Of a DNA stretch of 38,092 bases, positions 18,281 to 38,092 are shown one piece after another. Source of the DNA: Rhodospirillaceae bacterium (lineage in GTDB: Bacteria > Pseudomonadota > Alphaproteobacteria > UBA6615); contig JABIVD010000036.1 of NCBI GenBank assembly GCA_018667335.1, positions 1 to 38,092 on the forward strand, in the 5' to 3' direction. A program made the translations under genes and the position numbers. The notes beneath the pieces are model-generated. The model worked only from the letters and a program-made list of their open reading frames with translations, was not told where the DNA came from and searched no databases. Numbering within the stretch: position 1 is the first letter of the stretch; each line of letters opens with the position of its first letter.

Positions 18281-19207
18281 TCATTTTCGTGCCCAAGGGC
18301 CGCGGGGCTCAGGTTGAGGGCGCGACCATGGGCCGGTCATTGCTGCACCTGCGGATGTGGGAGTTGTATCAACATTTCCAGACATTTGGCGCAATCGTGC
18401 GACCCGGTTCGCGGTGCTGGGATGGGTCGAAAACAGCCTGTCACGCTTGTGGGCGTGCAGCGGATTGACGATGAACATGTGTGCAGTCGCCGGATTGTGT
18501 TCGGCGGCCTGATTGTCGATCTGCCGTGCTCCGGCCTCGAGCTTCTCCAGCGCGCTTGCCAGCCATTCCGGGTCACCGCAGATCAGCGCCCCTGCCCGGT
18601 CAGCCTGATATTCGCGATTTCGACTGATCGCCATTTGCACCAGCATCGCGGCCAGCGGCGCCAGGATCATCATCGCGATGGTGCCGATCAGGCCGAAAGG
18701 ACTGTTGCGATTGCCGCCGAAGAAAAGCGCAAAATTGGCGAGCATGGATATCGCGCCGGCGAAGGTCGCGGTGATTGTCATGATCAGGGTATCGCGGTTC
18801 TTCACATGCGCGAGCTCATGGGCCATGACCCCGGCAACCTCGCGTTCGTTCATCTGCTTCAGCAGGCCAGACGTCGCGGCCACCGCGGCGTTGCTCGGAC
18901 TGCGACCGGTCGCGAAGGCGTTGGGCTGTGGATTGTCGATGATATAGACACGCGGCACCGGCAGCCCGCCGCGCTCGGCGAGCTGGGCGACGATCCGGTA
19001 CAGCGGGTGGGTCGGATCGTTGAGTTCCCGCGCCCGGTAGTAGCGGAGTACGGCGCTGCCTGAATTCCACCATGCAAACAGGTTTATGGCCGCCGCGACG
19101 ACCAGCGCAATGACGATCCCCTGGGCCCCGGCCAGCAGAAATCCGCCGACCATGAAGATCGCCGTCAGGGCGGCGAGCAGCAGCGCTGTTCGGAAATAAT
19201 TCGACAT
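18281..19207 (-). CDS. htpX: zinc metalloprotease HtpX
   Basis: A 308-residue M48-family inner-membrane protease that takes part in membrane protein quality control. Two N-terminal membrane segments are visible (about 6-27 and 29-47) and two more after the active site (about 143-163 and 172-193). Zinc ligands are HELAH (130-134) and the glutamate in [11 protein letters not shown] (about 199). [20 protein letters not shown] is the family substrate-strand signature. ATG 19207 is preceded by GAAGG at good spacing. An ATG 12 codons upstream and a longer open frame to 19774 exist but run into the divergent gene. The C-terminal ~30 residues (Pro/Gly rich) have no domain. It is divergent from the DUF1674 gene. 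Confidence 0.95.
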
Positions 19208-19312
19208 ACCGGCCTTCGTTGGTCCTCTCGTTGATCCCATCATCCAATGTGGGCGCGTGTGGTTGTCTTGCAATCCCTTGGCAAACCGGGCCGGATCGTC
19301 CATATCAATGCC

Positions 19313-19549
19313 ATGTCCGAAGAACATGACAATCAGTCCCGCGAACGTGCGAACCCTACGCCGCAGTATCGCGTCCGCACGCCGGAGGGTGAGACTGGAA
19401 CACCAAAACCCGCCCAAAATGCGGCGCCAAAGGCCGCGGTGGTGAAACCTGCGGATTCCGGTAAGCCGAAGGAAATCGGCGGCCCCAAGGGTCTGGAGCC
19501 GACCCGGTTCGGCGACTGGGAACGCGACGGGCGCTGCGTCGATTTCTGA
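19313..19549 (+). CDS. DUF1674 / SDHAF4-like protein
   Basis: A 78-residue protein whose last 25 residues, starting [19 protein letters not shown] and ending GRCVDF, are the DUF1674 domain. In mitochondria the homologous Sdh8/SDHAF4 binds flavinylated succinate dehydrogenase subunit A and protects it during complex II assembly; a similar role in this bacterium is inference. The N-terminal ~50 residues are a low-complexity Pro/Lys/Ala linker. ATG 19313 is preferred over the more distant GTG 19247, which would add an extension lying in the divergent htpX upstream region. The exonuclease gene follows after 13 bases. Confidence 0.85.
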
Positions 19550-19562
19550 CGCACCCCCCAAG

Positions 19563-20150
19563 ATGCCCGATACTTTGAAGGACGTGGTGCCCGCATCCGG
19601 GGTGATCGTTATCGCCGATCTGGAATACACGTCGTGGGAAGGTGCCCAGGAAAGTGGCTGGGCCGCGCCGGGCCAGTTTCGCGAGATCGTGCAGATCGGT
19701 GCAGTGCGGGTCGATGCCGGCAACGACTTCGCGGAGCTGGCGAGTTTCTCCGTGCTTGTCCGCCCGATGATCAATCCCGAATTGTCAGCCTATTTCGTGG
19801 ATCTGACGGGCATCACCAGTGCGGAGGTGGCGCAAGCGGGTGTTGAGCTGGCGGACGCGTTATCCGCATTCGCCGCCTTTGCCGGCACGGACGTCATCCT
19901 GTCCCACGGCCGAGACGATCTGGTGATTGGCGAAGATTGTGCATTGAAGGATTTTGAAAACCCATTCGCCGACACGGACTGGCGGGATATCAACCCTCCG
20001 CTCCGCGCGATCACGGGCGAACATCTGATGAGCTCGGAATTGCCTGTGCATTTTGGGGTCGGACCGGTCGAGAATGCACATGATGCGCTCGCCGACGCGC
20101 GGGGACTGGCGCGTATCCTCACGCACCTCCGGAACGATACCCAGCTATAG
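19563..20150 (+). CDS. DEDD-family 3'-5' exonuclease
   Basis: A 195-residue single-domain exonuclease of the RNase T / KapD / DnaQ-like superfamily. ExoI is [12 protein letters not shown] (Asp19, Glu21), ExoII is in [10 protein letters not shown] (Asp118 region), and ExoIII is [14 protein letters not shown] (His173, Asp178), giving a complete DEDDh set for two-metal hydrolysis. [12 protein letters not shown] and YFVDLTGIT are also typical of the fold. The substrate (small RNA, DNA end or other) cannot be told. It follows the DUF1674 gene by 13 bases and converges on the ABM-fold gene with a 13-base gap. Confidence 0.85.
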
Positions 20151-20163
20151 AAATTGTGGCGGC

Positions 20164-20454
20164 CTAGGCCCGTGGAATCTCTGCCACCATGTCGAGCATC
20201 CGGCCCTTTGGCCCGAACTCGCCGAGCACCTCGCCGATCTTTTCGGCGTTGGAATCTCGGAAGTCGATGAAGTGTTGGTGGGTGTCCCAGCGCATATAGT
20301 TGAGCACCGTACCGGTCGCCGCTTCGACGTGGATTGTCGCGCCATGGAACTCCGGCTGGGCCGCAACGAGGGTGCCGGTGATCGCTTTCAGCGCGGCGAC
20401 GCAGGCGTCGACCCGTTCGGGCCCGACGGCGAATTCAACCATCACAATCTGCAT
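20164..20454 (-). CDS. small antibiotic biosynthesis monooxygenase (ABM) fold protein
   Basis: A 96-residue dimeric alpha/beta-barrel type protein: IVMVEFAVGPERVDACVAAL starts the fold, and VLNYMRWDTHQHFIDFRDS is the typical second half with an aromatic and a His. Members include quinol monooxygenases (YgiN) and heme-degrading enzymes, but most small ones are uncharacterised. The ATG at 20454 overlaps the stop of the large membrane protein (TGATG), so it is translationally coupled to it. An in-frame GTG three bases earlier is less likely because it would sit directly on the AAGGAG. Its cofactor and substrate are unknown. Confidence 0.8.
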   Translation of the reverse strand: MQIVMVEFAVGPERVDACVAALKAITGTLVAAQPEFHGATIHVEAATGTVLNYMRWDTHQHFIDFRDSNAEKIGEVLGEFGPKGRMLDMVAEIPRA

Positions 20455-22541
20455 CACTCCTTATCCTCATCTGTTTGATCGGATGACATGTCCGGTTTGC
20501 GCGTGTTGGTGCGCAGCCGGTCGAAATCGAAAATGGTCGAGTCGTTGCGTGTGAATACGGGTCCGTCAGATTCGGGGCGATTTGCGGACTTGGGACGGTT
20601 GGCGGGCGGTTTTTCTTTTTCTTCCGCTTTTTTCTCTGCAGACGGCACCCTGTCCTCCACAGGTAACACCCTGTCTGGCGCCGGCCTGGGTGCGTTTTCA
20701 TCTTCGGAGGCGGTTGGCGTTGCGGGCGCGCCGTTCGATGCCGACTCGTCATTGACGACCGTGGCGCCGAGCTTTTCCCAATCAATACGGGTTTCCTGAA
20801 CCGCTTCGTGTCGCGCGCTCGGCTCCTGCGGCGTCGGTGTGGTGCGTTTTTCGGGGGCTGGCCGCGGTGGTTCGGGCCTCTCCGCTGCCGGGGTGGTCTC
20901 CTGTGTCAGGGGTTCCGCCGGTGTGTCACGGGTGCCGCGTTTGCGTCGCCAAGGCAGCCGTCCGGCGGACCTGGCCGGAGGCTCTTCCCGCGCGTCGTGC
21001 ACCACGGGTTCATGCAACGAGGGCGGGGGTGCGTCCGGTGTTTCGGACATGAGGGGTTCATGCACCGGAGCCGGAGGCTCTTCCGGCGTGTCGTGTGTGA
21101 CAGGTTCATGCACCGGCGGGCGCGGCGCGCGAGATTGACTGGCCTCCGGGGTCACCTCGATCGGTTCGTCGTCGAATGCCGTGGCGGCATCGAAGCCTGG
21201 TTCCTCATGCTTGTCATAATCGGCAAGTTCGGCGGGATCCAGGGCGGCGAAATCGGCCGAGGGCGCCGGGGTTGGTACATTGTGCCGGCGTCGTCCGAAC
21301 ATCGTTCCCAACGTGACCAAAACCAGCGCCGCACCAAGAAGCACGGTAGCGAGCCACATTTCGGGGATCGGCAGGAGCGGCATGGCCGCCGGTGCGCCGA
21401 TCCGTGCGACGAGCACCGTGATCAGCAGGATCGTCGCCAATACGCCGATGCCGACCTCGACGATCGCGAGCCAAATCATCGCAAACGAGGCGCCGAGCAT
21501 GGCCATGGCCGCACATGTCAGAACCAGCAGTACTAGCTGCCCTTGTGTATAGGGCCACACAAATACGCCCAGCGTGCCGGCCGTCGGAGCGAACATGATG
21601 TCGGTGGCAGCCATCAGGCCGGTGGTGATGAATATGAAGACTATGGTGGTCCCCAGGACATGCTGACGGCGCCGGGGACCGAATATGCGTGCGATGACGA
21701 AACCACCGAGCCCAAGACAAATTGTCGCGACGATGGTCGATTCGACTCCAAAACCTTCGAGTGGGCTTTTGCGGGCGAAATCACCCAGGTAGATCGTTGC
21801 GGCGTGCCCGGCGAGTGCCATCGCGATCAGCAGTGCATAGATTTGTGGACCCGTGAGTACGAACCCCAATGCATCGCGCGCATCGGCGCGCAGCTCCGCA
21901 GAGAAGAGAGCATTCGGTCGCCCGCCGCGGGCGCGGCCCATCGCCCGGAACAGGCTGAGCACGAGAAGGACCGTCAGGACGATCGCCAGCCAGCCCATCG
22001 GTTCGATCACGTCCAATCCACCCAGGTCCGTCAGCGCCGCGATGCGGTCTTCGGTCTCCGGGCGTGTCAACAGGCCGATGAGGGCGACCATGAGAAAGGG
22101 GCCGAGGATGAGGCCCGGCATGCCGGCGGCAATCTGTCGATGGGAGCCGTAGTGGCCGAGTACCAAAATCGGTAACACCAGCAGGGCGCCGGCGGCCAGG
22201 TTCAGGGCCGTGCGCCCCCATGAGAATGCCAGCGGCGATCCGATGGCCAGCATCGCCGCAACGGCGACAACAATCGAGAGTACGGCCAGAAACATGGCCT
22301 TGCGCCCGCCGATAACATAGGCCACCAGCAGGCCGATGATGCTGCCCGCGATGATGGAGCCCGGCTGTGCCTCGAGAGAAAGCGAGACGGCCGCGCCGCC
22401 GGGGGCAATTGCTCCGTTCCCTGCGAGTGAAATCGACAGGAACTGCAACACGGGAATCAGCGCTGCCGGGAGCGCGACCAAAAGGACGAGAGAAATCAGC
22501 GGCAAGCGCACGTGCGCGGTGTCATCGGGCTCGTATGTCAC
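20454..22541 (-). CDS. uncharacterised polytopic membrane protein with long disordered C-terminal tail
   Basis: I do not recognise this 695-residue protein. Residues 13 to about 415 hold roughly 12 hydrophobic segments (for example 13-40, 62-79, 83-101, 141-158, 183-200, 234-254, 268-287, 296-318, 334-358, 360-380, 395-415) with short polar loops, as in a transporter or membrane scaffold. Residues 416-695 are rich in Pro, Glu, Ala and Arg and look disordered. They contain three 16-residue repeats (477-524) starting V/L-H-E-P and a basic patch LPWRRKRGTR. A short hydrophobic-acidic motif near the end, STIFDFDRLR, could be a binding peptide. It lies 36 bases downstream of acs and is coupled to the ABM-fold gene. 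Function is unknown. Confidence 0.8.
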   Translation of the reverse strand: MTYEPDDTAHVRLPLISLVLLVALPAALIPVLQFLSISLAGNGAIAPGGAAVSLSLEAQPGSIIAGSIIGLLVAYVIGGRKAMFLAVLSIVVAVAAMLAIGSPLAFSWGRTALNLAAGALLVLPILVLGHYGSHRQIAAGMPGLILGPFLMVALIGLLTRPETEDRIAALTDLGGLDVIEPMGWLAIVLTVLLVLSLFRAMGRARGGRPNALFSAELRADARDALGFVLTGPQIYALLIAMALAGHAATIYLGDFARKSPLEGFGVESTIVATICLGLGGFVIARIFGPRRRQHVLGTTIVFIFITTGLMAATDIMFAPTAGTLGVFVWPYTQGQLVLLVLTCAAMAMLGASFAMIWLAIVEVGIGVLATILLITVLVARIGAPAAMPLLPIPEMWLATVLLGAALVLVTLGTMFGRRRHNVPTPAPSADFAALDPAELADYDKHEEPGFDAATAFDDEPIEVTPEASQSRAPRPPVHEPVTHDTPEEPPAPVHEPLMSETPDAPPPSLHEPVVHDAREEPPARSAGRLPWRRKRGTRDTPAEPLTQETTPAAERPEPPRPAPEKRTTPTPQEPSARHEAVQETRIDWEKLGATVVNDESASNGAPATPTASEDENAPRPAPDRVLPVEDRVPSAEKKAEEKEKPPANRPKSANRPESDGPVFTRNDSTIFDFDRLRTNTRKPDMSSDQTDEDKE
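20970..21113 (-). repeat. three 48-base in-frame repeats encoding 16-residue HEP units
   Basis: The tail of the membrane protein has units VHEPVTHDTPEEPPAP, VHEPLMSETPDAPPPS and LHEPVVHDAREEPPAR, exactly 16 residues each. The DNA keeps recognisable copies of the segment GGTTCATGCA at each unit start, so this is a diverged tandem duplication. Confidence 0.85.
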
Positions 22542-22577
22542 AACAATGCCTACATACCTTTGTATGTTCGGGTCGGG

Positions 22578-30151: not shown

Positions 30152-31555
30152 ATGACCATGCGTGATGAAACAGATCAGCCGGCAAGCAAGATCGTCGATG
30201 CCTTTGGCGGTATTCGCCCGATGGCGGCGCGGTTAGACGTCCCGGTGAGCACCGTTCAGGGCTGGAAACAGCGAGACACCATCCCGGCTGCGCGGATGGA
30301 AGCTATTCGCGCGGCTGCCGCGGCGGAGGGAATCGACCTGTCATCAGGCAGCACGGGTGCCGCGGGTCCGTCCGAATCAAACAGTTCGAAGGAACAGGAC
30401 GAGACGAGGGAAGAACGCGACGTGTCACCCGGGAGCGGAAAACCCGAGCCTCGGGATCGCGCGACATCTCCCGCCCGCGGTGGTGGGCTCGCGATTTTGG
30501 CCCTCGCGGTCGCGATCGGCGTCGGTGGCTGGGTCTGGTGGTCGACCATGGGACCGGGCGCGAGTGATGGCGACAATGCCCGTTTCTCAGCGCTTGAAGG
30601 CCGGGTCGCACGTCTTGCCGAGACCAATGGAGATGGCGCGCCGGCTGCAGACCCGGCGGCGTTGGCGTCCCTGACCCAGGAAGTGGCGGCGCTGCGCATC
30701 CAATTGTCCAAACTGTCGCCGCCGGATATGGAAACCGCCCTCGCGCCGTTGCGGGCCGAGATAGACGGGTTGCGTGATGCACTCGCGGCGGGGGGCGGAA
30801 ATGGGACGTCCTCTGATCCCGCGATTCTCGCCCGGCTCGACGTTCTCGACGTCGAGATACAGAACGCAATCCAAATTGCCTCCACGAACATACAGGCCAT
30901 GTCCGGCGGGATCTTGGAGTTCGATGCGAAGCTCAAGGCGCTGACGGCGGCACAGGCCGCATTGGAATCGCAGATTGCCGCGCTGGGCGCCGGAAGAGAC
31001 GCCGACGACGCGGCAATGTCTCGCGCATCGGTACTGGCGCTTGCGGCAGGTCAGTTGCGGACCGCGCTGGAACGCGGTGCACCGTTCGCGGGGCCTCTGA
31101 ACACGGCGGGGTCATTGGGTGACGCCGACCCGACATTGAACACGGCGTTCGAGATGCTTCGCGTATCTGCAGAGACCGGCGTGGCGACAGCGCCTGCGCT
31201 CGAGCTTTCGTTCGCAAATTTGATTCCGGAACTACTGGCCGCGGGCAGACGCGGCGAGACCGGTGATCTTGTCGATCGCCTGACGGGTCGGATCAACGAC
31301 ATCGTTCGCATCCGTCGGACCGGGGCAGATGTGCAAGGCAATGATATCGAGGCCCGGATTGCGCGCGCCGAAATATTGCTGGCGGATCGTAATGTCGCGA
31401 ATGTCATGTCGGAGCTCAAGGATGTTGGTGGCACGCCGGGTGAGATCCTCTCGCCCTGGATGACCCGCGCACAGGCGCATCTCGATGCGCAGGATGCGCT
31501 CGCGGTGATCGAGGCGCAGGCGATTGCCCGGCTGCGCGCCGAGGGCGGTTCGTGA
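30152..31555 (+). CDS. Mic60/mitofilin-like membrane protein with N-terminal HTH-like segment
   Basis: A 467-residue protein in the position held by alphaproteobacterial Mic60 (between hemD and hemY). One transmembrane helix is at about 112-131 (LAILALAVAIGVGGWVWW). Residues about 144-290 are coiled-coil-like (LEGRVARLAE, LTQEVAALRIQLSKL, LKALTAAQAALESQIAAL). The C-terminal part (about 300-467) resembles the mitofilin core, ending DALAVIEAQAIARLRAE. Mic60 shapes inner-membrane invaginations and contacts the outer membrane. Unusually, residues 11-60 look like a helix-turn-helix: KIVDAFGGIRPMAARLDVPV then STVQGWKQRDTIP, as in YdaS/Cro-like or carph-isopro segments. The stop overlaps the hemY ATG (TGATG). 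Confidence 0.82.
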   Translation: MTMRDETDQPASKIVDAFGGIRPMAARLDVPVSTVQGWKQRDTIPAARMEAIRAAAAAEGIDLSSGSTGAAGPSESNSSKEQDETREERDVSPGSGKPEPRDRATSPARGGGLAILALAVAIGVGGWVWWSTMGPGASDGDNARFSALEGRVARLAETNGDGAPAADPAALASLTQEVAALRIQLSKLSPPDMETALAPLRAEIDGLRDALAAGGGNGTSSDPAILARLDVLDVEIQNAIQIASTNIQAMSGGILEFDAKLKALTAAQAALESQIAALGAGRDADDAAMSRASVLALAAGQLRTALERGAPFAGPLNTAGSLGDADPTLNTAFEMLRVSAETGVATAPALELSFANLIPELLAAGRRGETGDLVDRLTGRINDIVRIRRTGADVQGNDIEARIARAEILLADRNVANVMSELKDVGGTPGEILSPWMTRAQAHLDAQDALAVIEAQAIARLRAEGGS

Positions 31556-38025: not shown

Positions 38026-38092
38026 GCCGCCTTAGCTCAGTTGGTAGAGCATCGCATTCGTAATGCGGGGGTCGCAAGTTCGAGTCTTGCAG
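38026..38092 (+). tRNA. tRNA-Thr (anticodon CGT), 3' end outside window
   Basis: The acceptor strand GCCGCCT begins at 38026. The D-stem GCTC/GAGC follows, then the anticodon stem TCGCA/TGCGG with loop TTCGTAA, which gives anticodon CGT reading ACG (Thr). The T-arm is GCAAG-TTCGAGT-CTTGC. The window ends two bases into the 3' acceptor strand (AG), which matches the expected complement so far. Confidence 0.92.

Follow-up and report, generated by a model that had tools for sequence, protein, structure and literature searches.

The acetate permease ActP of the SSF family, the SatP/YaaH acetate transporters (PF01184) and the MFS carriers (PF07690) were taken as the closest described systems for a membrane protein encoded next to acs in the window (the whole stretch of 38,092 nucleotides that was analysed). 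In E. coli, the gene order acs-yjcH-actP places an integral membrane protein downstream of acs, and this position is shared by the window protein; unlike ActP, the window protein had no match to SSF (PF00474), and its own genome had no SSF match at all. With the SatP/YaaH transporters only a candidate role is shared, whereas the window protein had no match to their profile and PF01184 was matched in 0 of 24 family genomes. MFS carriers contain an Asp in loop 2-3 as part of motif A. In common with these carriers, the window protein has 12 segments with N-in/C-in ends (as judged by charge), a cytoplasmic loop in the centre, loops 2-3 and 8-9 of basic character, the sequence GxxxGP (which we take to be the motif of these carriers) in helix 5 and a profile alignment over the full length. 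The window protein differs from them by the absence of a profile match and of the motif-A Asp, by a 277-residue tail, and by scores far below those of the MFS proteins that were tested.

The open reading frame of 695 residues had been placed correctly by the original prediction, and it lies on the minus strand, running from 22541 to 20454 (Table 1). Homologues were found in three other carrier genomes of the same genus (G003, G005 and G006; the window's own genome is G000). For the six possible pairs of these four genomes, the membrane half gave dN/dS values of 0.117-0.193 and the tail gave 0.314-0.577, the latter with high dS values (0.96-1.78) and with only a partial tail from G003. The gene is genuine and under purifying selection in both halves, and the values for the membrane half indicate that the protein is therefore real and used.

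Table 1. Coordinates of the membrane-protein gene, its parts and its neighbours in the window
Feature	Position	Strand	Evidence or remark
ABM-fold protein gene	20164..20454	minus	PF03992, 4.8e-07; ATG overlaps the membrane-gene stop (TGATG)
Membrane-protein gene, 695 aa	20454..22541	minus	GTG start, TGA stop; homologues in G003, G005, G006; dN/dS
Tail, residues 419-695	20457..21287	minus	Low complexity, probably cytoplasmic, predicted nearly structureless; composition, AlphaFold model
Conserved tail block 2, FTRNDSTIFDFDRLRTNTR, residues 663-681	20499..20555	minus	Three sequences compared
Conserved tail block 1, HEAVQETRIDWEKLGATV, residues 578-595	20757..20810	minus	Three sequences compared
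Basic patch PWRRKR, residues 530-535	20937..20954	minus	P530, W531, R533, K534 invariant in four sequences
Three 16-residue HEP repeats, residues 476-523	20973..21116	minus	Array private to the window genome
Membrane half, residues 1-418	21288..22541	minus	12 hydrophobic segments, N-in/C-in suggested by charge; hydropathy, 79-87% identity to three homologues
Loop 8-9 segment GFVIARIFGPRRR	21666..21704	minus	Degenerate, MFS motif-A-like, no Asp; sequence
Helix 5 segment GMPGLILGPF	22095..22124	minus	GxxxGP core, partial MFS motif-C-like; sequence
Loop 2-3 segment GLLVAYVIGGRK	22299..22334	minus	Degenerate, MFS motif-A-like, no Asp; sequence, alignment
Leader between acs and membrane gene, 36 nt	22542..22577	minus	5' part resembles the G002 acs-ABM spacer
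acs, acetate--CoA ligase, 647 aa	22578..24521	minus	TIGR02188, 1036 bits vs cut-off 725

The end of acs lies 36 nt upstream of the GTG, and the membrane gene directly follows acs in all four carriers. A one-base overlap between its stop codon and the ABM start was found in three of the four, that is, wherever the junction could be read. It is TGATG in both the window and G006 and TAGTG in G005, and purine-rich sequence precedes it in each of the three; in G003 the contig ends within the membrane gene, and a fragment of ABM opens another contig. Elsewhere in the window, an HtpX-like protease frame of 497 residues (18281-19774, minus strand), whose HtpX match begins at about residue 190, probably has its listed TTG start too far upstream, or else carries an N-terminal extension. 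A Mitofilin-like protein (PF09731, E 9.2e-08; 30152-31555, plus strand) is encoded after the genes for porphobilinogen deaminase and uroporphyrinogen-III synthase, and a tRNA gene (38026-38092, plus strand) runs off the 3' end.

No acceptable match for the membrane protein came from Pfam, NCBIfam, PHROGs, PADLOC or sequence searches of the PDB, the window's copy being the only query in NCBIfam and PHROGs. For all four members, Pfam listed no MFS family up to an E value of 10, at search filters that remove most matches above E 0.1, and the MFS cut-off was not reached; PF00474 and PF01184 likewise gave no match. DUF7797 (PF25073) was listed for all four members and was rejected, with a best E value of only 0.21 and, for the window protein, 0.32-0.39 and about 11 bits where the cut-off is 27. 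The profile searches thus agree with the claim that the membrane half belongs to no nameable transporter family, though a weak in-register similarity to MFS was found as described below.

The 12 helices that had been claimed were recovered as 12 hydrophobic segments by hydropathy between residues 14 and 415 (14-32, 61-79, 82-100, 111-129, 137-155, 184-202, 234-252, 270-288, 300-318, 336-354, 360-378 and 397-415). The topology was read from hydropathy and a charge count only: 12 Lys and Arg residues were counted in the loops taken as cytoplasmic (tail excluded), mainly in loops 6-7, 8-9 and 2-3 if both ends are assumed inside, vs 6 in the other loops. Twelve helices with both ends inside are predicted on this basis, and the tail should therefore be cytoplasmic. 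Among acidic residues inside the helices, D314 (helix 9) is invariant and E362 (helix 11) is Glu or Asp in the four sequences.

For the comparison with MFS carriers, 27 of 30 fetched MFS loci of the window's own genome (which had 42 MFS matches) were used, three having been dropped by a length filter of 350-520 residues. Of the 28 control proteins, 17 were membrane proteins of E. coli from outside the MFS (with kefC and cyoB in trimmed form) and 11 were DctM proteins, for which 22 loci had been fetched and 13 given, two of these being dropped by the same filter. In the global comparison, the profile of the four sequences was aligned with the MFS set end to end over 383 columns with a score of 16.3 (P 0.0037), a score which was reached by 0 of 150 hydropathy-preserving shuffles and lay above all 28 non-MFS controls (best 14.7). 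Used singly, the members scored 18.6, 14.9, 12.4 and 7.4; the lowest value belongs to the window's protein and lies below several controls. Eight E. coli MFS proteins scored 73-251 in the same test. By local score the query alignment (24.4) was not separated from the controls hyfB (27.3) and nrfE (24.4), and 24.4 was reached by 2 of 150 shuffles and, in an earlier run, by 1 of 40. In half-length MFS tests the query was within the range of the controls, and no internal match was found between the N-half and the C-half of the membrane half. When the DctM alignment was used as the partner, only 8 columns were aligned with a score of 4.1, MFS and DctM being the two families that were tried.

Motif-like segments were also seen. 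The loops GLLVAYVIGGRK and GFVIARIFGPRRR were likened to MFS motif A and GMPGLILGPF to motif C, and the GxxxGP of helix 5 and an Arg that opens helix 4 presumably occupy the positions that they have in MFS carriers. The motif-A Asp is absent from both loop 2-3 and loop 8-9, so that the protein may be a carrier which has lost its transport activity. For the membrane half the leading candidate, about an even bet judged from the sequence comparisons, is an MFS-type fold; the protein was not filed as an MFS member.

The long disordered tail that had been predicted corresponds to 277 low-complexity residues with 17% Pro, 12% Glu and 12% Ala, made up mostly of Pro, Glu, Ala, Arg, Asp and Thr. It is predicted to be disordered; the AlphaFold model of two sequences (pLDDT 52, longest helix of at most 4 residues) is consistent with disorder and is not proof of it. 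Absence of the tail from the homologues, named beforehand, together with a confident structural match to a known transporter family, as what would speak against the proposal, was not observed, since it is kept to its end in G005 and G006 and over its first 102 residues in G003, where the contig ends. Three HEP repeats of equal length were confirmed in the protein, starting at residues 478, 494 and 510 with a spacing of 16, and in the DNA, as an array with a 48-nt period, 3.0 copies, 68% matches and a TRF score of 146. The units of the window, scored against themselves, gave 61.7-72.0 vs a maximum of 41.0 in 300 shuffles of the tail. HEP does not occur in the homologues of G003, G005 and G006; one related unit was found in each of G003 (PPREPVVRVTPDMPPA) and G006 (APREPVMRDTPPEPPA), with scores of 41.0 and 44.0, respectively, above 300 of 300 shuffles, and the best unit of G005 (25.3) was inside the noise of 300 shuffles. 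As the array is private to the window and G003 and G006 carry one related unit each, an old unit may have been triplicated recently. The HEP repeats were ruled out as the conserved core of the tail, the homologues having no HEP and G005 no related unit above noise.

The basic patch that had been described was confirmed as PWRRKR, and PW-x-RK is common to all four carriers. Among the three tails readable to the end (window, G005 and G006), only two blocks reached 60% invariance over 15 columns, with consensus sequences like HEAVQETxIDWxKLGxTV for block 1 and FTRxxSTxFDFDRLRxNTR for block 2. Both begin with an RH[ED][AS]-like start, followed by T-x-[IF]-D-[WF]-x-[KR]-L. The likeness between the two blocks was matched by 8 of 2500 column shuffles when gaps were allowed; without gaps it lacked significance, 158 of 3000 shuffles doing as well, and the best pairing was a different one. 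A regular expression for the block motif gave 24 matches in 110 overlapping records, all in the window protein and its homologues, a rarity that is descriptive only because the expression was composed after the blocks had been seen. The claim that the tail recruits partners draws more support from the two conserved blocks and the basic patch than from the HEP repeats, their triplication being private to the window genome.

The protein query matched 4 of 60 relatives (the own genome counted), all in the window's genus, of which 7 genomes were searched, and a profile of the four membrane halves picked out these four carriers, and no others, among 24 genomes of the order. In the class sample 6 of 385 genomes were matched, two being carriers (the own genome and G006) and four being weak matches (E 0.003-0.05), and in the phylum sample 5 of 398, one being the own genome and four being weak (E 0.005-0.009). 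The samples overlap, and the larger two were drawn evenly from bigger groups, so that an unsampled homologue is possible. None of the eight weak matches outside the clade, which span between 46 and 182 positions of the profile, was accepted as a homologue. Three loci read by eye held, respectively, a frame resembling an ABC-type permease, a frame for a small membrane protein, and a short segment between unrelated frames; four of the remaining five matches contain stop codons. One viral scan gave no homologue of the membrane protein.

An ABM match was found in 12 of the 24 family genomes and an acs match, at a strict threshold, in 20. Among the 12 genomes with ABM, four carry the membrane gene, and in five (G002, G011, G020, G021 and G022) ABM follows acs directly; in G012 and G018 ABM is on a separate contig with no ABM within 150 nt after acs, and G023 was unreadable. 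The acs-ABM pairing is thus independent of the membrane gene, and acs with ABM looks like a functional pair of older date. The tie to acs and to the ABM-fold gene that had been claimed was borne out as adjacency and a one-base overlap with ABM; it is positional only, acs and ABM being adjacent without the membrane gene in the five relatives. In an acs tree of 18 genomes, rooted on G010 by choice, the four carriers were placed together with a support of 0.992, and G011, which has an empty site, was their sister; the empty-site genome G002 belongs to the window's genus. Since the carriers form one clade and relatives have empty sites, one gain into an existing acs-ABM pair is the simplest account, and the membrane gene was probably inserted once between the two genes. 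Downstream of acs, the spacer of the carriers shows a short match to the spacer between acs and ABM in G002, which is only suggestive. Both the membrane gene and an ABM match are lacking in two further genomes of the genus, G001 and G004, and their acs genes are 88% identical to that of the window, less than that of G011 from another genus (91%), for which reason the genus looks mixed.

An argument that the membrane protein replaces an acetate permease was dropped. Among the carriers, G005 and G006 had SSF matches and G000 and G003 had none; of the 20 non-carriers, 3 had such a match (one below the cut-off), and PF01184 was matched nowhere. As SSF is present in two carriers and absent from most non-carriers, gene content gives an acetate-permease role no support. 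The acetate link of the membrane protein is a guess from position only.

As a joint explanation, a lineage-specific, acs-linked and carrier-like inner-membrane protein with a role in small-acid handling and a partner-docking tail was considered the best, and is offered tentatively, the chance that all of it holds being somewhat below even. By this account, the gene would have been gained once between pre-existing acs and ABM genes; the membrane half would be carrier-like, probably with a far-diverged MFS-type fold, and would most likely serve acetate or another small acid handled beside Acs; the disordered cytoplasmic tail would dock a cytosolic partner through two related short motifs, and the basic patch may lie on the membrane. 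The MFS-type fold, any transport and its substrate, the docking and the docking partner are what we infer from these data. Alternatively, a transporter-derived membrane half could have lost its transport activity and act as an anchor, with the tail as a tether that holds Acs, the ABM protein or some other enzyme there. The motif-A-like loops without Asp (by the motif as we take it to be) and the retention of two blocks within an otherwise fast-changing tail would fit such a scaffold, but the invariant D314, the acidic residue at 362 and the strong constraint on the whole membrane half suggest a working core, and acs and ABM of the relatives manage without the membrane gene; we regard this scaffold as unlikely, if worth keeping in view.

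The link to acs may instead be an accident that provides expression only, with a horizontally acquired gene of unrelated function sitting in a transcribed gap. No homologue was accepted outside the clade among the 385 class and 398 phylum genomes sampled and the relatives have empty sites, as such an acquisition would have it, yet the position after acs is kept in all four carriers, the overlap with ABM in the three readable ones, and no donor was found, and we regard an accidental link as likewise unlikely. That the membrane half has another known transporter fold invisible to sequence methods is improbable: the AlphaFold model of three sequences is unusable (pLDDT 36.9) and the MFS profile evidence is weak, which would leave room for it, but it was MFS that aligned over the full length and DctM that did not, among the two families tried. 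Beyond the preferred account of a carrier-like protein with a docking tail, a bolder proposal would be a new family of membrane organisers, in which a carrier-derived anchor bears a tail that gathers acetate-activating enzymes at the inner membrane by a docking motif, T-x-[IF]-D-[WF]-x-[KR]-L, present in duplicate, and which arose in one clade by insertion into a conserved gene pair; it is a long shot.

The locus offers a clean case of a large membrane-protein gene that appeared, probably once, between two genes of core metabolism which are adjacent in close relatives, and that selection has maintained, its stop codon sharing a base with the start of the next gene. A membrane-protein family missed by the profile libraries searched would be added. 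Docking of Acs or the ABM protein by the tail, if it occurs, would link acetate uptake and activation physically.
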